Assembly: GCF_964019755.1 (NCBI RefSeq)
Contig: NZ_OZ026469.1
Location: forward strand, 868,001 to 932,000
Source: Spiroplasma endosymbiont of Polydrusus cervinus
GTDB lineage: Bacteria > Bacillota_I > Bacilli_A > Mycoplasmatales > Mycoplasmataceae
Reading direction: 5' to 3'
DNA: 64,000 nucleotides
Part shown: piece by piece, positions 15,501 through 53,000 of the stretch
How the letters are laid out: every line of letters begins with the position of its first letter
Position numbering within the stretch: position 1 is the stretch's first letter
The notes under the pieces: generated by a model
Told to the model about the DNA's origin: nothing
The model's database searches: none
The model's input: the letters and a program-made list of their open reading frames with translations, nothing else
Position numbers and translations under genes: made by a program

Positions 15501-16729
15501 TAGACTGCACCCTGTTTAGTAAGTATTAATAAAAAGGTTTACAAACTTTCATTTATTATATATTTTTCTTTTTGGTTTGAATATCATTTATTTCATTTTT
15601 TAACATCATTAATATATTCATTATGAGATTTATAATTTTTATTATGGATTGTTCCTTTTTTAAGTAATGAATGAAAACTTTCAATAATAATGTTGTCTGC
15701 ACAATGATAATTTTTACCCATTGAAATTATAATTTTGTTATCTAAACATTTACTATTGTAATCTTTAGATGTATATTGATATCCGTGATCTGAATGAATT
15801 ATTGTTTTATTTAAATCTTTTTTTATTTTTTTAATTTTATTAATTGCATCATTTAAATTATCAATTACAAGTTTGTTATTATTAAATTTTGATCATTTTA
15901 CATCAATAATTTCTTTAGTATATCCATCAAGTATTGTTGATTGATAATGTTTTTTACCATTTCAAATTAAATAAGTTACATCAGTAAATAAAATTGAAAA
16001 TCTTTCTTTAATATCATTAAAATTACGATTTACTAAATCAGGATATTTAATTATATTTTTATTTCTATTTTGTTTTATTAATATTTTTCTACGCATACGC
16101 TTTACATATTCAGCTTGAATATTATTTTCTTTCATAATTCGCAATACTTTCTTAGCATTATAAACAATACCATAATCTTCTTTTAAATATTTGGTAATTC
16201 GACGATAACCAAATTGTTTTAAATTTTCTTCATAGACTTTTACAATATTTTTTAATGATTCGCTATCCTTACCATTACTTGAATAATTTTTATATTTATC
16301 TCAATAACTACGCTTTAAATCTGTTATATCAAGTAATAAATTTAGTGGATATTTATTAATGTTTTCTTTGATAAAAGATACAATTTTTCTTTTATTTAAT
16401 TGTAAAAGTCATGAAGCTTTTTTAGTAATTCATACCTAACTTTGTAATAGTTTAAATCTCTTTTTTCAAATGATTCTTTTGGACCTTTATTGGTGTTTAA
16501 AATTCCTTTCTTAAAATTTTCATACCATGAAGCAACAGTTTTTTTATTAATTTGATATTTTTTTGCAATAAAACTTATACTATTATTTTTAACCTCTTGT
16601 ACTATCATTTTTCGAAAATATGCTGTATATTTATTAAATTTTTGTCCTTTTCTTGCCATATAAAAATGCACCTCCTTTAAAGTTTAGCAAAGACTTTTTT
16701 TCTTTACTTACTTTTTTGGGTGCAGTCTA
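15501..16729 (-). mobile_element. IS3-family element, copy B (full length, coding intact)
   Basis: Complete from TAGACTGCACC to GGTGCAGTCTA. Flanks (CTC and GAA) do not match, and a 5'-truncated copy in the other direction follows immediately at 16730, so its surroundings were rearranged after insertion. This is the only full copy in which I found no frameshift or stop in either frame. Confidence 0.9.
15539..16659 (-). CDS. IS3-family transposase OrfAB (made by -1 frameshift)
   Basis: OrfA (16396-16659; 87 residues, MARKGQKFNKYTAYFRK..., HTH INKKTVASWYENF) and orfB (DDE integrase core) overlap in frames 0 and -1. The slippery heptamer A AAA AAG lies in orfA at the codons CTA AAA AAG just before CTTCATGAC. 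After slipping, the frame continues KKASWLLQLNKRKIVSFIKEN into orfB, which has TDVTYLIW (first Asp), IIHSDHGYQYTS (second Asp) and ESFHSLLKKG (Glu). Two TGA-Trp codons are needed. The ribosome site AAAGGAGG precedes the MARK start; MHFYMARK is an alternative. Confidence 0.85.
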
Positions 16730-17490
16730 GAATCATTAAAAAATATTGTAAAAGTCTATGAAGAAAATTTAAAATAATTTGGTTATCGTCGAATTACCAA
16801 ATATTTAAAAGAAGATTATGGCATTGTTTATAATGCTAAGAAAGTATTGCGAATTATGAAAGAAAATAATATTCAAGCTGAATATGTAAAGCGTATGCGT
16901 AGAAAAATATTAATAAAACAAAATAGAAATAAAAATATAATTAAATATCCTGATTTAGTAAATCGTAATTTTAATGATATTAAAGAAAGATTTTCAATTT
17001 TATTTACTGATGTAACTTATTTAATTTGAAATGGTAAAAAACATTATCAATCAACAATACTTGATGGATATACTAAAGAAATTATTGATGTAAAATGATC
17101 AAAATTTAATAATAACAAACTTGTAATTGATAATTTAAATGATGCAATTAATAAAATTAAAAAAATAAAAAAAGATTTAAATAAAATAATAATTCATTCA
17201 GATCACGGATATCAATATACATCTAAAGATTACAATAGTAAATGTTTAGATAACAAAATTATAATTTCAATGGGTAAAAATTATCATTGTGCAGACAACA
17301 TTATTATTGAAAGTTTTCATTCATTACTTAAAAAAGGAACAATCCATAATAAAAATTATAAATCTCATAATGAATATATTAATGATGTTAAAAAATGAAA
17401 TAAATGATATTCAAACCAAAAAGAAAAATATATAATAAATGAAAGTTTGTAAACCTTTTTATTAATACTTACTAAACGGGGTGCAGTCTA
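16730..17490 (+). mobile_element. IS3-family element, copy C (5'-truncated)
   Basis: Starts inside orfB (ESLKNIVKVYEENL) and runs to the right end GGTGCAGTCTA. A CAA-to-TAA change soon after its start (AAAATAATTTGG) adds a stop. It lies head to head against copy B. Confidence 0.85.
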
Positions 17491-22013: not shown

Positions 22014-23241
22014 TAGACTGCACCCCGTTTAGTAAGTATTAATAACAAGGTTTACAAACTTTCATTTATTATAATTTTTCTTTTTGGTTTGAATATCATT
22101 TATTTCATTTTTTAACATCATTAATATATTCATTATAAGATTTATAATTTTTATTATGGATTGTTCCTTTTTTAAGTAATGAATGAAAACTATCAATAAT
22201 AATGTTGTCTGCACAATGATAATTTTTACCCATTGAAATTATAATTTTGTTATCTAAACACGTACTATTGTAATCTTTAGATGTATATTGATATCCGTGA
22301 TCTGAATGAATTATTATTTTATTTAAATCTTTTTTTATTTTTTTAATTTTATTAATTGCATCATTTAAATTATCAAGTACAAGTTTGTTATTATTAAATT
22401 TTGATCATTTTACATCAATAATTTCTTTAGTATATCCATCAATTATTGTTGATTGATAATGTTTTTTACCATTTCAAATTAAATAAGTTACATCAGTAAA
22501 TAAAATTGAAAATCTTTCTTTAATATCATTAAAATTACGATTTACTAAATCAGGATATTTAATTATATTTTTATTTCTATTTTGTTTTATTAATATTTTT
22601 CTACGCATACGCTTTACATATTCAGCTTGAATATTATTTTCTTTCATAATTCGCAATACTTTCTTAGCATTATAAACAATGCCATAATCTTCTTTTAAAT
22701 ATTTGGTAATTCGACGATAACCAAATTGTTTTAAATTTTCTTCATAGACTTTTACAATATTTTTTAATGATTCGCTATCCTTACCATTACTTGAATAATT
22801 TTTATATTTATCTCAATAACTACGCTTTAAATCTGTTATATCAAGTAATAAATTTAGTGGATATTTATTAATGTTTTCTTTGATAAAAGATACAATTTTT
22901 CTTTTATTTAATTGTAAAAGTCATGAAGATTTTTTAGTAATTCATACCTAACTTTGTAATAGTTTAAATCTCTTTTTTCAAATGATTCTTTTGGACCTTT
23001 ATTGGTGTTTAAAATTCCTTTCTTAAAATTTTCATACCATGAAGCAACATTTTTTTTATTAATTTGATATTTTTTTGCAATAAAACTTATACTATTATTT
23101 TTAACCTCGTGTACTATCATTTTTCGAAAATATGCTGTATATTTATTAAATTTTTGTCCTTTTCTTGCCATATAAAAATACACCTCCTTTAAAGTTTAGC
23201 AAAGACTTTTTTTCTTTACTTACTTTTTTGGATGCAGTCTA
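22014..23241 (-). mobile_element. IS3-family element, copy E (full length)
   Basis: Both ends present; its left end carries the GGATGC variant also seen in D and F. It is nested inside D/G. Confidence 0.88.
22069..23171 (-). CDS. IS3-family transposase OrfAB, copy E (C-terminus slightly shortened)
   Basis: OrfA is open (variant INKKNVASW, ENLHDFYN). In orfB a 2-nt deletion near 22070 replaces the last residues (KEKYIINESL) by KEKL and an early stop. The catalytic region is intact, so activity is possible but unproven. In this copy the slippery region reads CTA AAA AAT, so the normal A AAA AAG heptamer has lost its final G. Confidence 0.65.
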
Positions 23242-23583: not shown

Positions 23584-24358
23584 TCTTTTATCAAAGAAAA
23601 CATTAATAAATATCCACTAAATTTATTACTTGATATAACAGATTTAAAGCGTAGTTATTGAGATAAATATAAAAATTATTCAAGTAATGGTAAGGATAGC
23701 GAATCATTAAAAAATATTGTAAAAGTCTATGAAGAAAATTTAAAACAATTTGGTTATCGTCGAATTACCAAATATTTAAAAGAAGATTATGGCATTATTT
23801 ATAATGCTAAGAAAGTATTGCGAATTATGAAAGAAAATAATATTCAAGCTGAATATGTAAAGCGTATGCGTAGAAAAATATTAATAAAACAAAATAGAAA
23901 TAAAAATATAATTAAATATCCTGATTTAGTAAATCGTAATTTTAATGATATTAAAGAAAGATTTTCAATTTTATTTACTGATGTAACTTATTTAATTTGA
24001 AATGGTAAAAAACATTATCAATCAACAATAATTGATGGATATACTAAAGAAATTATTGATGTAAAATGATCAAAATTTAATAATAACAAACTTGTACTTG
24101 ATAATTTAAATGATGCAATTAATAAAATTAAAAAAATAAAAAAAGATTTAAATAAAATAATAATTCATTCAGATCACGGATATCAATATACATCTAAAGA
24201 TTACAATAGTACGTGTTTAGATAACAAAATTATAATTTCAATGGGTAAAAATTATCATTGTGCAGACAACATTATTATTGAAAGTTTTCATTCATTACTT
24301 AAAAAAGGAACAATCCATAATAAAAATTATAAATCTCATAATGAATATATTAATGATG
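23584..24358 (+). mobile_element. IS3-family element, copy G (orfB part, cut by E1)
   Basis: Runs from TCTTTTATCAAAG through orfB (TDVTYLIW, SDHGYQYTS, ESFHSLLKKG) to NEYINDV, where E1 begins at 24359. The right terminus is missing. Together with D it formed one plus-strand copy before E and F arrived. Confidence 0.82.
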
Positions 24359-24547
24359 TGTATACTGTAAAACTAAATCATAAAAAGTTAATAAAATTAT
24401 AGCAAATTAAAAATAAAAAACAATAATCACAAAAAATATTAAATTAAAAACAATATTTTTAATTTAATATTTTTTGTGATTATTGTTTTTTATTTTTAAT
24501 TTGCTATAATTTTATTAACTTTTTATGATTTAGTTTTACAGTATACA
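24359..24547. repeat. E1 palindromic element, complete (189 bp)
   Basis: Mirror-image arms from TGTATACTGTAAAAC to GTTTTACAGTATACA; it replaces the right end of IS copy G and lies 108 bp before trpS. Confidence 0.88.
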
Positions 24548-28831: not shown

Positions 28832-29884
28832 TTGAAAACAAATATTTTAGAGTTACGGAATATTTCAAAACAATATGAAGGAAAGGTTATTTTGAAAGGA
28901 ATTAACTTAAACATTAAAGAGGGAGAATTTGTCACATTACTGGGGCCATCAGGATGTGGTAAAACAACAATATTAAGAATTATTGCTGGATTTGAACAGC
29001 CAAATAGTGGTGAATTATTATTTTTAGAAAAAGATTACTTAAAAACGCCGGTTCATAAGCGCGAAGTTAATACTGTTTTTCAAAACTATGCCTTATTTCC
29101 TCATTTAACTGTTTTTGATAATATTGCTTATGGTTTAAAAATTAAACGAAATAAATATAATATTATTGAAACGGAAGTTAAAAAATTTCTACAGTTAGTG
29201 GGATTAGAAGGCTTTGAAGATAAATCAGTTGAGCAGTTGTCGGGAGGACAATGCCAACGGGTTGCGTTAGCCCGTGCTTTGATTAATAAACCAAAGGTTT
29301 TATTATTAGACGAGCCAATGGCGGCCTTAGATGTTAAGTTACGAAAAAAAATGCAAACAGAATTAAAAGCTTTGCAGGGGGAAATTGGGATTACTTTTAT
29401 TTTAGTAACCCATGATCAAGAAGAAGCATTGACAATGTCTGATCGGATTATTGTGATGAATGATGGGGCAATTCAACAAGTTGGAACGCCAGCGGAAATT
29501 TACAATGAGCCAGAGAACTTATGAACGGCCCAATTTATTGGTGATTCAAATATTATTTCAAATGCCATTTTTATTAAAGACAATTTAGTTGAAATTGATG
29601 GGAAAAAATTTATTTGTGCTGACCGTGGTTTTGGAGAAAATGAAAATCGCATTGATATTATTATTCGTCCCGAAGATATTGATATTGTTCCAGTGGGGAA
29701 AGGGTTTTTTACAGGAACAGTTATAAGAGTTAACTTCAAAGGGGTTCATTGAGAAATTATTATTAAATATAAGGAAAGGAAATATTTAATTCATTCAACA
29801 GATAAAGTTGAAGAAGGTGATCAAGTTGATATTTCATGAAATGTTGAAGATATTCATGTGATGTGAAAAGAAATTGATGATTAA
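28832..29884 (+). CDS. potA: Spermidine/putrescine ABC transporter ATPase
   Basis: A 350-residue ATPase energising polyamine uptake. Walker [10 protein letters not shown] (about 38-46), Q-loop FQNYALFP, signature [15 protein letters not shown], Walker [13 protein letters not shown] and H-loop VTHDQEEA, then a C-terminal TOBE-like domain ([14 protein letters not shown]). The start is TTG at 28832, placed by GGAGTAGGAG; no ATG fits. Three TGA-Trp codons in the C-terminal half. It is followed 12 bp on by potB. Confidence 0.94.
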
Positions 29885-29896
29885 AGAGTAAGCGTG

Positions 29897-30865
29897 ATGG
29901 AAAACAAAGGGAAACCACTGGGAAAAGTTAAAGGGTGATTTAAAAAACACGGTAGTAGGGTTAAATCAAATAGCCAGCAATTTTCTGCTTGATGCCGCAC
30001 AAAATATTTAAAAATTTCTTATCACACAAAACAAAGTAAATGGTTTAAAAGAGGTTTAAATCCAATTTTATGACCATACCTTCTTATTATGATTTTATTA
30101 ATTGTTTTACCGTTATTAATTATTTTGCTATATTCATTTATTCAACCAACAGGAAATAGTTTGGTATTTGAAATTAATTTTAAAAACTTTGTAACATTTT
30201 TTTCAGAACAGAATTTTGTTATTGCCTTATTTTTAGCATTGGGGTATTCATTAATTGCGGCCATAATTGCGATTGTGATTGCTTATCCAGTTGTATATGT
30301 GATGGCATTTTGTAAATCAAAATTGTTATCAAGAAATATTTGAATTTTAGTAACACTACCAATTTGAATTAATATGTTATTAAAAATTATTGGGTTGCAA
30401 ACATTGTTTAATATTATTGCCCCAGGGTTGCTAGGAACGCCAATTTCAGTTGTTATTGGGATGGTTTATGCTTTTTTGCCATTTGTAATTTTACCAATTT
30501 ATAATAGTTTAGATAGAATTGATACTTCATTAATTGAAGCTTCAAAAGATTTGGGAGCAAATGGTTTTAAAACATTTTGAAAAGTTATTTTTCGTCAATC
30601 AATTCCAGGCATTATTGCGGGAGGAACATTACTATTAGTTCAAGCCACAACGTCTTTAATCATTGTAAAATTTATGGGGAATGGTCGCATCAATCTAATT
30701 GTTGATGTCATTGAAGCGTATTTCTTTAAAGGGGAAAATTTTGGAATTGGCGCAGCGATATCAGTTGTTTTAGCGCTTATTGTCTTTTTAATTATTGTCC
30801 TATCAAATTGATTATCGAAATATTTTGAAACAAGAAAGGGGCGTCGAAATGAGAAAGTTTTTTAA
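29897..30865 (+). CDS. potB: Spermidine/putrescine ABC transporter permease PotB
   Basis: A 322-residue membrane permease. A basic N-terminal extension (about 60 residues) precedes the first helix ([20 protein letters not shown]). Six helices, with the EAA loop [21 protein letters not shown] about 60 residues before the end of the helical part. The stop overlaps the next start by 17 nt, indicating translational coupling. Several TGA-Trp codons. Confidence 0.92.
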
Positions 30866-33398
30866 GTCATCTTATATGGCATTAATTATGCTATTTATTT
30901 ATATTCCAATTATGATTTTAATTTTATTTTCCTTCAATAGTGGGGAAAGTATGAGCATTTTTAATGGTTTTTCTGATCGTTGATATAAACAACTTGCCAG
31001 TGAACAACCTTTTTTGAAAAGTATTATTGTGTCAGTTTTTACCGCGGTAATTTCGACCATTGTTTCAGTTATCATTGGGACGTTAGCGGCGATTGGTTTA
31101 AGTCGAGCACGCCGAGTTACCGAAAAAATGACCTTATCAATTACAAACATTCCGTTAATTAATGCTGATATTATTACAGCCGTATCGTTAATGATGTTAT
31201 TTATTGCCTTAGGAGCAAATTTTGGAATGTTAACATTAGTTTTAGCGCATATTTCATTTGATGTTCCGTATGTTATTTTAACGGTATTCCCACGATTACG
31301 AAAAGTGGATCCAAAATTAATTGAAGCATCATTAGACTTGGGGGCAAAGCCATCACAAACATTACGGAAAATTATTTTGCCAATTTTAAAACCAGCTATT
31401 ATTGCGGCGGCGGCAATTGCCTTTGTGATGAGTTTTGATGATTTTATCATTTCTTATTTTACGGGTGGTGATGATGTTAACGTTGCAACATTCATTTATA
31501 CGATGAAACGCATTAAACCATTTATTAATGCTTTTGGAACAATTTGTATTACAATTATTGGAATTGTTATTATTGGTTGAAATGGTTGAAATATTTATAA
31601 AATTAATTATAATAAGTTTCGCCGGGAAATGTTAAAAGGAACTTATAAAGACAAAGATATTATGCATTATGAAAAGAAATTAGCCTTTCTTTATCATCAA
31701 TTAAATAGTAAGCAATTTGATAATGAAAAACAAAAAGAACGTTTACGTTGAAAAATTATTAGACTAGAAAAAAAATACGATAAAAGTGTTTTATGAATCG
31801 AAAATAAGAAACAAAGTTTTGTTGAACAACAAGAAATCAAAGAAAATATTAATAAAATGTCTCGGAAAAAATTCCGTTGATTGGCAAAAAGTTGAAAACT
31901 AGTTTCGTTGACAATTATTGCTGTTGGCTCAATAGCCTTATTAACGGGGGGTTATATTAATAATAATATTTATGATTTAGCCGTCGCGAACTGAGGGGGG
32001 TATATTACTGTTGATTTAATTAGTAATTTTGAAAAGAAATATAATGTAAAAGTTAAGTATAGTGTTTATGATAGCAATGAAACATTATACAACAAACTAT
32101 ATACAACACATTATGACATTATGGTACCAAGTGATTATATGGTTAATAAGTTAGCACAAGAAAATCGTTTAGAAGAAATTGATTATCAAAAACTAAATGA
32201 AGTTGATAAAAGCTTTAACATTATTAAACCAAATGTAAATTATCATGGTGAACAGGTGACAGAACGAAAAATTGGAAATGAATATTTTAATGATTTAAAT
32301 GTTGATATTGCAACAGTGCAAAAAACAAATCCAGAATTTTACCAAAATTGTATTGTGCCAGCTAATTTAGACCCAACAACATCAAAATGTTTTGATAAAA
32401 ATCATACCGCATCATTAGCCAATGGTTTATTAAATGTTTTAAATAAAAATAAAATAAGTGGCGAAAAAACAATTGTAAATTATAGTTTACCTTATTTTTG
32501 AGGCGAAGTTTCGTTAGTAGTTAATCCAACAGCAAGTAATTTAGAATTCTTAAAATATTTTTTTGCAAAGGCAAATCAAACTTTACCATCATCAGCGAAA
32601 GGGCAATTTGGTTATGAACGAGCAGAGTGAGATACTGATGCTGGCCGTGATCAAATTAAACTTATTGATGTGGTAAATAATAGTGTTGAATCAAATGGAA
32701 TTTCATGAGATATTTTATGACGAGCAGCAGCAGCAAATAAGCGCGTTTTAATTAATAATGATCCGCGAAACTTATTTATGTTGACTACTGAAAAAAAATA
32801 TTTTAAACCAGTGCCAACAACAAAAAGCGAAATTGATTATGGTTATCATGAATTAGCAATATTGTTAAAACATAATAATGTTGCCTTAATGAATGATGAA
32901 TTAATAAACGCTGTTGGGGATGGAAACTTTGATTTTGCCTTTATATATAATGGTGATGCAATTTATGCTGATACATTATTTGCTAAGAGTCGTAGAGAAG
33001 CTAGTGCTACCAAATTAATTATTACCCGACCACGAGCAACAACTGAATGAACACCAGCAACAATCGAGGGAACTAATATTTGAAGTGATAATATGGTTTT
33101 AGCAAAGAATGCGAAGTATCCTGATTTAGCTTATAAGTTTATGAATTTTATTATTCAAAACGGAACCGCTTTAACTGAAGAAGCAAATTATATTTCTCCT
33201 TACCAACAAGTAATGGATTATGAAAATAATTATAATTATTATCGTAATGAACATGGCCCAATATCAGGAGCTATGGTTAATTATCGTCGTGACTATGTGC
33301 CGGTGGCGAAACTTGATGATAATGATATGTATATTTCCCAACCAGAAATGGCAGATGGACCATTTACAATTTACAATATATTAAACACAAAAAAATAA
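30849..33398 (+). CDS. potCD: Fused permease PotC and substrate-binding protein PotD
   Basis: An 849-residue fusion known from mollicutes. Residues 1-250 are the PotC permease, with six helices and the EAA loop LIEASLDLGAKPSQTLRKIILP. A basic linker of about 90 residues follows, then another membrane helix (about 350-370) that tethers PotD outside the cell. PotD runs from about 375: YDLAVANWGGYITVDLISNFEKKYNVKVKY, HYDIMVPSDYMV, GTNIWSDNMVLAKNAKYPDLAYKFMNFI. It overlaps potB. The last codons (NTKK) and stop coincide with a repeated IS30-side sequence (compare 37230-37270), so the natural C-terminus may have been replaced. Confidence 0.93.
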
Positions 33399-33685: not shown

Positions 33686-34501
33686 TTAGGCATATATTCC
33701 ATAGCGATCAACCAACTGTCTTGTTCGTCTTTCTAATAATAAAAATAAAGTAGCATTGACAATATATTTTCCTGTAAAAATTCCAAATAAAATTCCGATA
33801 AAAATTAAAGTATGCTGTCATGATTCAAAAATCGAAGCCATTCCGTGAATATCATGGTCATGATCATGACCAACATCAGTATGACGGATATTTACTAAAA
33901 TTTTGGCAACAATTAGAAATAAAATTGCTTCAATTAAAGCACATATTGGAATAATAATAACAAATGCTAAAATTTTCTTTACGCAATTAATATTGCTAAT
34001 TTTATGATGATGATTATGAGCTTTTTTAACATGATGATACTCATGAATATTATGGTCGGTCACATTTTCTGGCACCCTAGTTTTTGCACAAGCATTGAAT
34101 AAAATATAATAAACAAATCATGTTATAAACACAACTAAAATATTAGAAATCATAAAAAACGCCATTTCAATTCAGGTATGATACCCATCAATTAAGTTAT
34201 GAATTCATGGTAAGGCTATTCCCTCTAATAAACCAAATCCTAACCCAACAATTGAAATTGAATAAATAATTACTAAAGTATCAAAAAAACGCAATCCAAA
34301 AGTTGCTCCCCAAGGAGTTGGCACATTAAAAACTTCTAATAAGCTTAACTCAACCACCATTGCTAAAAAAATAGCAGAAGTCGCAATTTTAAAAGTAATT
34401 GACCTTTGATTATATAATTCTTTATGAAAAACTGATTTTTTAATTCGTGCTCAAATCTTATCATTTTGTAATATTAAATTACTGTTATTATTTTTTCTCA
34501 T
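33686..34501 (-). CDS. ECF-transporter S-component-like membrane protein with His-rich loop
   Basis: A 271-residue membrane protein with about six helices. The N-terminal half (TFKIATSAIFLAMVVELSLLEVF, TPWGATFGLRFFDTLVII, LGFGLLEGIALPWIHNLIDGY) resembles substrate-binding S components of ECF vitamin/metal importers. Unusual are two His-rich hydrophilic loops, HEYHHVKKAHNHHHK (about 160-175) and HTDVGHDHDHDIHG (about 220-233), which suggest binding of Zn, Ni or Co. The C-terminus ends RRTRQLVDRYGIYA. No ATPase or T component is adjacent. S-component identity is inferred; membrane and His-rich character are seen directly. Confidence 0.65.
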
Positions 34502-43712: not shown

Positions 43713-44941
43713 TAGACTGCACCCCGTTTAGTAAGTATTAATAACAAGGTTTACAAACTTTCATTTATTATATATTTTTCTTTTTGGTTTGAATATCATT
43801 TATTTCATTTTTTAATATCATTAATATATTCATTATGAGATTTATAATTTTTATTACGGATTGTTCCTTTTTTAAGTAATGAATGAAAACTCTCAATAAT
43901 AATGTTGTCTGCACAATGATAATTTTTACCCATTGAAATTATAATTTTGTTATCTAAACAATTTACTATTGTAATCTTTAGATGTATATTGATATCCGTG
44001 ATCTGAATGAATTATTATTTTATTTAAATCTTTTTTTATTTTTTTAATTTTATTAATTGCATCATTTAAATTATCAATTACAAGTTTGTTATTATTAAAT
44101 TTTGATCATTTTACATCAATAATTTCTTTAGTATATCCATCAAGTATTGTTGATTGATAATGTTTTTTACCATTTAAAATTAAATAAGTTACATCAGTAA
44201 ATAAAATTGAAAATCTTTCTTTAATATCATTAAAATTACGATTTACTAAATCAGGATATTTAATTATATTTTTATTTCTATTTTGTTTTATTAATATTTT
44301 TCTACGCATACGCTTTACATATTCATCTTGAATATTATTTTCTTTCATAATTCGCAATACTTTCTTAGCATTATAAACAATGCCATAATCTTCTTTTAAA
44401 TATTTGGTAATTCGACGATAACCAAATTGTTTTAAATTTTCTTCATAGACTTTTACAATATTTTTTAATGATTCGCTATCCTTACCATTACTTAAATAAT
44501 TTTTATATTTATCTCAATAACTACGCTTTAAATCTGTTATATCAAGTAATAAATTTAGTGGATATTTATTAATGTTTTCTTTGATAAAAGATACAATTTT
44601 TCTTTTATTTAATTGTAAAAGTCATGAAGCTTTTTTAGTAATTCATACCTAACTTTGTAATAGTTTAAATCTCTTTTTTCAAATGATTCTTTTGGACCTT
44701 TATTGGTGTTTAAAATTCCTTTCTTAAAATTTTCATACCATGAAGCAACAGTTTTTTTATTAATTTGATATTTTTTTGCAATAAAACTTATACTATTATT
44801 TTTAACCTCTTGTACTATCATTTTTCGAAAATATGCTGTATATTTATTAAATTTTTGTCCTTTTCTTGCCATATAAAAATGCACCTCCTTTAAGTTTAGC
44901 AAAGACTTTTTTTCTTTACTTACTTTTTTGGGTGCAGTCTA
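43713..44941 (-). mobile_element. IS3-family element, copy I (full length)
   Basis: Complete. Left flank is the GP20-like gene (plus), right flank is recT (minus), with no matching target duplication (ATC and TAA): the two phage pieces were joined by recombination between IS copies. Confidence 0.88.
43751..44872 (-). pseudogene. IS3-family transposase OrfAB, copy I (frameshifted orfB)
   Basis: OrfA open. Trp of TYLIW is Leu here, and an extra A near 43961 (AAACAATTTAC instead of AAACATTTAC) shifts orfB between the second Asp and the Glu motif. Confidence 0.82.
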
Positions 44942-48457: not shown

Positions 48458-49687
48458 TAGACTGCACCCTGTTTAGTAAGTATTAATAAAAAGGTTTACA
48501 AACTTTCATTTATTATATATTTTTCTTTTTGGTTTGAATATCATTTATTTCATTTTTTAACATCATTAATATATTCATTATGAGATTTATAATTTTTATT
48601 ATGGATTGTTCCTTTTTTAAGTAATGAATGAAAACTTTCAATAATAATGTTGTCTGCACAATGATAATTTTTACCCATTGAAATTATAATTTTGTTATCT
48701 AAACATTTACTATTGTAATCTTTAGATGTATATTGATATCCGTGATCTGAATGAATTATTATTTTATTTAAATCTTTTTTTATTTTTTTAATTTTATTAA
48801 TTGCATCATTTAAATTATCAAGTACAAGTTTGTTATTATTAAATTTTGATCATTTTACATCAATAATTTCTTTAGTATATCCATCAAGTATTGTTGATTG
48901 ATAATGTTTTTTACCATTTCAAATTAAATAAGTTACATCAGTAAATAAAATTGAAAATCTTTCTTTAATATCATTAAAATTACGATTTACTAAATCAGGA
49001 TATTTAATTATATTTTTATTTCTATTTTGTTTTATTAATATTTTTCTACGCATACGCTTTACATATTCAGCTTGAATATTATTTTCTTTCATAATTCACA
49101 ATACTTTCTTAGCATTATAAACAATGCCATAATCTTCTTTTAAATATTTGGTAATTCGACGATAACCAAATTGTTTTAAATTTTCTTCATAGACTTTTAC
49201 AATATTTTTTAATGATTCGTTATCCTTACCATTACTTGAATAATTTTTATATTTATCTCAATAACTACGCTTTAAATCTGTTATATCAAGTAATAAATTT
49301 AGTGGATATTTATTAATGTTTTCTTTGATAAAAGATACAATTTTTCTTTTATTTAATTGTAAAAGTCATGAAGCTTTTTTAGTAATTCATACCTAACTTT
49401 GTAATAGTTTAAATCTCTTTTTTTCAAATGATTCTTTTGGACCTTTATTGGTGTTTAAAATTCCTTTCTTAAAATTTTCATACCATGAAGCAACAGTTTT
49501 TTTATTAATTTGATATTTTTTTGCAATAAAACTTATACTATTATTTTTAACCTCTTGTACTATCATTTTTCGAAAATATGCTGTATATTTATTAAATTTT
49601 TGTCCTTTTCTTGCCATATAAAAATGCACCTCCTTTAAAGTTTAGCAAAGACTTTTTTTCTTTACTTACTTTTTTGGGTGCAATCTA
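48458..49687 (-). mobile_element. IS3-family element, copy K (full length)
   Basis: TAGACTGCACC on one side; on the other the end is mutated (GGTGCAATCTA). Its insertion broke the PAP2 gene. Confidence 0.88.
48496..49617 (-). pseudogene. IS3-family transposase OrfAB, copy K (orfA frameshifted)
   Basis: Same extra T as copy A, so orfA ends KKRFKLLQS. OrfB is open with integrase motifs; one Arg near LRIMK is changed. Confidence 0.83.
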
Positions 49688-51771: not shown

Positions 51772-53000
51772 TAGACTGTACCCTGTTTAGTAAGTATTAA
51801 TAAAAAGGTTTACAAACTTTCATTTATTATATATTTTTCTTTTTGGTTTGAATATCATTTATTTCATTTTTTAACATCATTAATATATTCATTATGAGAT
51901 TTATAATTTTTATTATGGATTGTTCCTTTTTTAAGTAATGAATAAAAACTCTCAATAATAATGTTGTCTGCACAATGATAATTTTTACCCATTGAAATTA
52001 TAATTTTGTTATCTAAACATTTACTATTATAATCTTTAGATGTATATTAATATCCGTGATCTGAATGAATTATTATTTTATTTAAATCTTTTTTTATTTT
52101 TTTAATTTTATTAATTGCATCATTTAAATTATCAATTACAAGTTTGTTATTATTAAATTTTGATCATTTTACATCAATAATTTCTTTAGTATATCCATCA
52201 AGTATTGTTGATTGATAATGTTTTTTACCATTTCAAATTAAATAAGTTACATCAGTAAATAAAATTGAAAATCTTTCTTTAATATCATTAAAATTACGAT
52301 TTACTAAATCAGGATATTTAATTATATTTTTATTTCTATTTTGTTTTATTAATATTTTTCTACGCATACGCTTTACATATTCAGCTTGAATATTATTTTT
52401 TTTCATAATTCGCAATACTTTCTTAGCATTATAAACAATGCCATAATCTTCTTTTAAATATTTGGTAATTCGACGATAACCAAATTTTTTTAAATTTTCT
52501 TCATAGACTTTTACAATATTTTTTAATGATTCGCTATCCTTACCATTACTTGAATAATTTTTATATTTATCTCAATAACTACGCTTTAAATCTGTTATAT
52601 CAAGTAATAAATTTAGTGGATATTTATTAATGTTTTCTTTGATAAAAGATACAATTTTTCTTTTATTTAATTGTAAAAGTCATGAAGCTTTTTTAATAAT
52701 TCATACCTAACTTTGTAATAGTTTAAATCTCTTTTTTCAAATGATTCTTTTGGACCTTTATTGGTGTTTAAAATTCCTTTCTTAAAATTTTCATACCATG
52801 AAGCAACAGTTTTTTTATTAATTTGATATTTTTTTGCAATAAAACTTATACTATTATTTTTAACCTCTTGTACTATCATTTTTCGAAAATATGCTGTATA
52901 TTTATTAAATTTTTGTCCTTTTCTTGCCATATAAAAATGCACCTCCTCTAAAGTTTAGCAAAGACTTTTTTTCTTTACTTACTTTTTTGGGTGCAGTCTA
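51772..53000 (-). mobile_element. IS3-family element, copy L (full length)
   Basis: Clean insertion with a 3-bp GAG target duplication (51769-51771 and 53001-53003). Right end shows one change (TAGACTGTACC). Confidence 0.9.
51810..52930 (-). pseudogene. IS3-family transposase OrfAB, copy L (nonsense in orfB)
   Basis: OrfA is open, with the slippery A AAA AAG. In orfB the Gln of HGYQYTS is TAA (near 52049), just after the second catalytic Asp. Confidence 0.85.

Follow-up and report, generated by a model that had tools for sequence, protein, structure and literature searches.

An MPN160-related ECF S component with two histidine-rich loops in a Spiroplasma endosymbiont, a candidate for divalent metal import

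Among the S components described so far, the group I metal proteins CbiM and NikM begin with an N-terminal Met-His metal-binding start, and RibU, FolT and HmpT carry an AxxxA motif in helix 1; to our knowledge, neither histidine clusters nor a histidine pair in loop L3 have been described for the latter three. According to the accessible part of a study of S-type folds, EcfT is bound by the AxxxA motif, which receptor relatives lack, and the S fold is also found in sensor kinases (PMC11109136). In Mycoplasma genitalium, hrl, of which MPN162 is a homologue, and the EcfAA'T genes MG302-304 are regulated by Fur, and no ecfS was found near the MG302-304 operon, as far as the accessible text of the report goes (PMC6968530). 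The same text describes a fur mutant in which nickel, not zinc, is about 10-fold up, and a lowering of hrl expression by zinc; MG147 is unnamed in the accessible part of its main text (PMC6968530).

Here we describe a gene from the genome of a Spiroplasma endosymbiont (a single 1.12-Mb contig), located in a stretch of 64,000 nucleotides that was analysed as a whole and is called the window below. A reading of this DNA made from its letters alone had taken the gene product for an ECF-S-like membrane protein, possibly a metal importer or sensor. The S fold predicted for the window protein is common to CbiM and NikM (4m5b, 4m58, 5x3x; Z 7.3-9.4), and a metal substrate is proposed for it here; the Met-His start of these proteins is absent from it, and structurally it is closer to RibU than to CbiM/NikM. 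RibU, FolT and HmpT are among its best structural matches and have the helix-1 motif in common with it, whereas the histidine clusters and a conserved L3 histidine pair set the window protein apart from them.

Gene, predicted fold and family relations

The reading frame of the gene (Table 1) is open only under translation table 4 and has five TGA codons that encode Trp, and the protein starts with MRKNNNSN. Histidine accounts for 17 of its 271 residues, and the densest stretch of 15 residues holds seven, a density attained by 8 of 20000 shuffled versions of the protein and by no sequence among 20000 drawn at random from the ORFs of the window (1.73% His); the runner-up among these ORFs (48 non-overlapping ones of at least 100 aa, the S component ORF included) has three His in 15 aa. 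Both histidine-rich peptides named in the sequence-only reading, which gave no strand, were found letter for letter, and the clusters recur in relatives. The two loops are not equivalent, as they are predicted on opposite membrane faces. Cluster 1 (L4) is assigned to the cytosol and cluster 2 (L5) to the outside because of the S-component plan and the distribution of charges (N-terminus +8/-2, L4 +5/-3, L5 +1/-5, C-terminus +4/-2).

Table 1. Features of the S component gene and its product, in window coordinates
Feature	Position	Strand	Residues	Remark
CDS (table 4), MPN160-related ECF S component	33686..34501	minus	271 aa	
AIFLA, AxxxA motif, helix 1	34361..34375	minus	43-47	expected EcfT contact
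RFFD, RxxD, L1/TM2	34280..34291	minus	71-74	possible substrate-site residues
PWIHNLIDGYH, L3 (TM3-TM4)	34178..34210	minus	98-108	proposed metal site
His cluster 1, HEYHHVKKAHNHHHK	34001..34045	minus	153-167	TM4-TM5 loop (L4), predicted cytosolic
His cluster 2, HTDVGHDHDHDIHG	33842..33883	minus	207-220	TM5-TM6 loop (L5), predicted outside

The gene stands apart in the window, after an ABC operon of the opposite strand (28832-33398), which we take to be of the spermidine/putrescine type and in which a PotC-PotD like pair of second permease and substrate-binding part reads as a single 867-aa ORF. Eight near-identical ORFs of at most 201 aa, several of them truncated, lie in the window at 2117-2722, 15539-16144, 16847-17452, 22069-22656, 23818-24402, 43950-44357, 48496-49101 and 52047-52415; they look like transposases and presumably represent an insertion-sequence family spreading in the genome. 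At other loci of the window's genus (L002-L010, L012, L013), an AT-rich dyad overlaps a -10-like element upstream of the gene; its 12-bp arms are perfect in L002 and L003. Most of these loci also have, farther upstream, a conserved stretch which appears to resemble the end of an RNase P RNA; it is absent from the window, where transposase-like ORFs are found in its place.

An AlphaFold2 model of the window protein, built from 8 sequences and of modest confidence (pLDDT 68.8, pTM 0.60), begins with a long helix, followed by a short beta hairpin and the other S component helices, and it aligns best with ECF S components. In the VIA fold comparison, the best 22 rows were all ECF S components (Z 15.2 to 7.3), headed by TmRibU (Z 15.2, 171 residues, 2.8 A) and 3p5n (RibU, Z 15.1) and followed by FolT, PanT, ThiT, BioY and others; the metal S components 4m5b and 5x3x scored Z 9.4 and 7.3, and the first unrelated row shares Z 7.3 with the last S component. 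The entries 4huq, 4hzu, 4m5b and 4m58 bear only general titles in this list, and the subunit names given for them come from outside it. Moreover, the VIA list for the model of a second member, from Mesoplasma photuris, is headed by 21 S components from Z 13.7 downward, and both models thus have the six-helix S-component fold by this comparison. Subunits of AMO/pMMO, which stood just below the S components for the second model (Z ~8), were taken as reflecting a common helical arrangement and set aside. Foldseek returned no match at E<=0.001, its best E values being 0.046 for the window protein and 0.018 for the second model. The AxxxA motif is present in helix 1, and a small-xxx-small pattern at this place was found in 57 of the 58 aligned members (first position A in 19, G in 30 and S in 8), the exception, L011, being a sequence that was shortened at its start by the ATG rule.

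The NCBIfam search gave one match, NF045740 (MPN160, a family of unassigned function), at E=9.9e-37 over profile positions 149-385 of 386. With 127.1 bits against an equivalog cut-off of 550, the window protein, the single match in the host genome, is related to MPN160 and not an equivalog: it is homologous across the whole S domain but is without the first 148 positions of the profile, and it has histidine clusters in L4 and L5, which are missing from the two true MPN160 members that were read, L099 and L103. Pfam yielded DUF1980 only (E=0.82), phmmer against PDB sequences gave 4hzu_S as its best match (E=0.26), and the family profile A1, built from 36 of the 58 aligned family proteins, found no PDB sequence at E<=10. 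A relation to recognised S families was seen in hhalign, where the MPN160-family profile matched a profile of seven 0877-type S components (97.5%, E=6.2e-12), and in the member L096, whose residues 73-297 match the curated S model NF043064 (E=3.1e-8). The MMSYN1_0877 S component (NF043064) is hence a profile-level homologue of the window's family, but it constitutes a separate family, of which the host genome carries its own copy elsewhere.

A match was found in every one of the 60 genomes of the window's family, and the 36-member profile gave matches in 82 of the 298 genomes of the order (E<=1e-3), 60 of these in the family. From the 60 genomes, 61 loci were collected, G030 having two (L042, L043), with S component gene copies whose starts are about 2.6 kb from each other. 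Since three loci were left out (L014, the broken copy of G020, as well as L045 and L055, which were missed by phmmer in genomes that the profile search did find), member counts refer to 58 proteins, the window's included, from 57 genomes. The G020 copy (G020:C1:1401810-1402729) shows in-frame stops and split ORFs, which, provided that no sequencing error lies behind it, argues against the gene being strictly essential.

The predicted fold, the helix-1 motif, the profile comparison and the gene neighbourhood described below uphold the earlier description of the protein as ECF-S-like, and a clear match to an unrelated transporter in which the loops are not conserved was looked for and not found. 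We regard the protein as almost certainly an ECF S component.

Conserved residues and placement of the histidine clusters

A histidine cluster predicted to be cytosolic is present in all 58 aligned members, in one of two places. In the 45 members outside the window's genus it lies at the N-terminus, where all 45 have 5 or more His and 40 a strict DHYHxxHH, and in the window's genus it lies in L4, between TM4 and TM5 (13 of 13 members, the window's own included, and none of the 45 others); all members share the inner cluster, but not its position. The outer cluster has at least 4 His in 50 members and 0-2 His in the other 8.

Residues D74 and H101 are kept in 58 of 58 aligned members, and R71, P98 and H108 in 57. 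The PWxH...H stretch of L3 also occurs in all four distant relatives that were read (L099, L100, L101, L103), of which the f5 member L101 has no histidine cluster; hence, we propose L3 as the substrate site and the clusters as accessory. Within this predicted site, L3 would act together with D74, which is replaced by N and E in L099 and L103. Directly after the His-poor MPN160 relative of L101 lies an ORF of about 193 aa (L101:5568-6149) that is rich in His (7.7%) and has an N-terminal hydrophobic stretch, for which no NCBIfam match was found.

Operon context and distribution of metal transporters

In the mycoplasma genus g38, MPN160 genes belong to an operon with the order EcfA, EcfA', EcfT, MPN160, lipoprotein, in which neighbouring genes are at most 14 bases apart or overlap. 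The operon is complete in L102 and L103, with an EcfA carrying Walker A and LSGGQ, and in the third genome (G193, read from L111 and L115) its first gene, EcfA, is cut by the edge of the stretch. All three operon genomes exceed the MPN160 cut-off (630 bits in L103, 639 bits in L111), and their lipoproteins match MPN162 under the equivalog cut-off (1.3e-10 in L103, 1.6e-12 in L102, 9.4e-5 in L111); additionally, two of these lipoproteins match the lipoprotein of L099 in BLASTP (8e-8 and 3e-8), partly across His-rich stretches. A genome of 580,076 bp (G070), which we take to be M. genitalium G37, has an MPN160 equivalog (607 bits) separated by one gene from an MPN162 equivalog (445 bits, 7.8% His). 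The g38 genes for EcfAA'T, MPN160 and an Hrl-like lipoprotein, which share one operon, resemble MG_302-304 and Hrl (MG_149) of M. genitalium in this association.

The published M. genitalium Fur box has a single match in L099, located before the lipoprotein gene (the MPN162 equivalog), in a search with up to 3 mismatches that also found a match in 8 of 200 shuffles; it was not found before the MPN160 gene of L099, and boxes of the published type with up to 3 mismatches were found neither in the window nor in L103. In five of seven named relatives an 0877-type S gene lies directly upstream of the gene, namely in Mesoplasma seiffertii, Acholeplasma multilocale, M. lactucae, Spiroplasma sp. TIUS-1 (in these four, two over and two below the cut-off) and a Spiroplasma MAG; it is absent from this place in M. 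photuris and M. grammopterae.

An ECF module was recognised in the host genome: one EcfT lies beside an EcfA-type ATPase over the cut-off and a putative second ATPase, an ORF with the ABC signature LSGGQ that is cut by the edge of the stretch. As the search revealed no second EcfT in the host, the S component would share a single module in Spiroplasma. Among 16 genomes hand-picked from the 298, with pieces of one ORF joined, two EcfT genes were counted in each of the four MPN160-bearing genomes outside families f1 and f5, and one in the other 12 (six f1/f5 genomes with MPN160-family genes and six genomes without). An EcfT tree sets the proteins of the three operons, together with the 372-kb EcfT of G070, apart from 16 others (support 92/94, not starred), but since the G070 protein forms a long branch, this grouping is only suggestive.

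Turning to known metal transporters, ZnuA exceeded its cut-off in none of the 298 genomes (2 weak matches), ZIP matched in 131 at E<=1e-3 (83 over the cut-off; inside the window's family two sub-threshold matches only), and the ABC-3 permease was found in 20, including one genome of the family. In the host genome, neither ZnuA nor ZIP is matched at E<=1e-3 and an ABC-3 permease was likewise not found, and the earlier remark that the organism has few metal transporters stands for these three families. A strict MPN160 set (E<=1e-20, a threshold picked after seeing the data) comprised 73 of the 298 genomes and overlapped with ZIP in two, both under the ZIP cut-off. Outside the family, MPN160 was found in 13 of 238 genomes and ZIP in 129, with no overlap, which corresponds to P=2.6e-5 if genomes are independent; the 13 genomes form three lineages and are not independent. 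The 0877 family, used as a control, is present in 58 of the 60 genomes inside the family and in 21 outside it (ZIP overlap 3), and because this distribution is similar, the complementarity of MPN160 and ZIP between families is largely phylogeny. The main weight was placed on the contrast within g38, where MPN160 is present in three of the four genomes and ZIP (below the cut-off) in the fourth; two of the four genomes are near-identical.

Substrate and possible mechanism

Given the above, we propose that the window protein probably serves as the S component in an ABC importer of the ECF type that brings in a divalent transition metal. Zinc is favoured, albeit tentatively, as the substrate in particular, and Ni2+ or Co2+ may be transported instead. 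The idea of a metal importer, already raised by the sequence-only reading, draws its support from the genomic context, i.e., the ECF/lipoprotein operon of true MPN160 genes and the absence of overlap with ZIP outside the family. Against a metal substrate, the closest folds of the predicted structure are vitamin S components and not metal ones. Further points against the proposal are the modest confidence of the model, the negative Fur box searches in the window, in L103 and before the MPN160 gene of L099, the few histidines of the outer cluster in 8 members, the lack of a cluster in L101, the broken gene of G020 and, for zinc, the rise of nickel instead in the M. genitalium fur mutant.

An ordinary vitamin-type S component (for flavin, pyridoxamine or similar), whose His-rich tails would be incidental or metal-buffering, is the strongest alternative, though we consider it unlikely: the proximity of its fold to RibU and FolT fits this explanation, as do the 0877-type S gene preceding the gene in most of the named relatives and the few histidines in the tails of relatives outside the family, while the operon with a His-rich lipoprotein homologue, with its link to the Fur regulon, the retention of the cytosolic cluster in every aligned member despite its changed place, and the recurrence of the L3 histidine pair in the four distant relatives argue against it. 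Very improbable, in our opinion, is a sensor or transceptor, that is, an S-fold protein which senses extracellular or cytosolic metal through its histidine clusters and does not transport it; sensor kinases do have the S fold too, but the window protein keeps the AxxxA motif, which receptors lack according to the accessible text of the same study (PMC11109136). Moreover, the protein ends 4 residues past its last predicted helix, with no output domain, and the relatives' gene belongs to an ECF operon. A metal carrier of the CDF or ZIP type, families that also have His-rich cytosolic loops, in CDF between TM4 and TM5 as in the window protein, is hardly credible, given that S components head the fold lists of both models and that neither ZIP (PF02535) nor CDF (PF01545) is among the Pfam matches at E<=10 (of which HMMER filters drop most above ~0.1); in its favour, besides the loop, is a weak match of one member to DmeF (E=0.018), limited to the histidine loop of that member.

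If the protein is a metal S component, its outer histidine loop could gather metal at the cell surface, and the H101/H108 pair and D74 would then hold the ion near L1 and L3. Helix 1 would dock on the EcfAA'T module, the S component would topple and release the ion inward, and the cytosolic histidine cluster may accept the released ion or sense cytosolic metal. We also put forward, as a possibility somewhat short of probable, that the MPN160 superfamily forms a separate zinc S class replacing ZIP in several Mollicute lineages, and that it includes the missing EcfS of the Fur-regulated M. genitalium importer as well as a fusion of the lipoprotein role in Spiroplasmataceae. In the latter, the S component would have taken over the role of the His-rich lipoprotein by fusion, in the form of a metal-catching loop outside and a cytosolic metal acceptor, and this acceptor would have moved between two cytosolic positions.

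The family name MPN160 already exists; a literature search of main texts found nothing on MPN160 (Mycoplasma pneumoniae) or MG147 (genitalium), and within that scope the functional assignment appears to be new. Neither MG147 nor MG149 is mentioned in the accessible part of the main text of a pooled-AlphaFold3 study of M. genitalium (PMC13047044). As regards zinc uptake by mollicutes without ZIP or ZnuA, a survey of the minimal genome Syn3.0 names, in its accessible text, no more than a Zur-like regulator and one protein that may bind zinc (PMC4993169). The MPN160 family could fill two gaps, that of mollicute zinc uptake and that of the EcfS missing from the Fur-regulated importer of M. genitalium. 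If this is true, the relocating cytosolic histidine cluster would be an unusual aid for an S component that has to release a tightly held metal.
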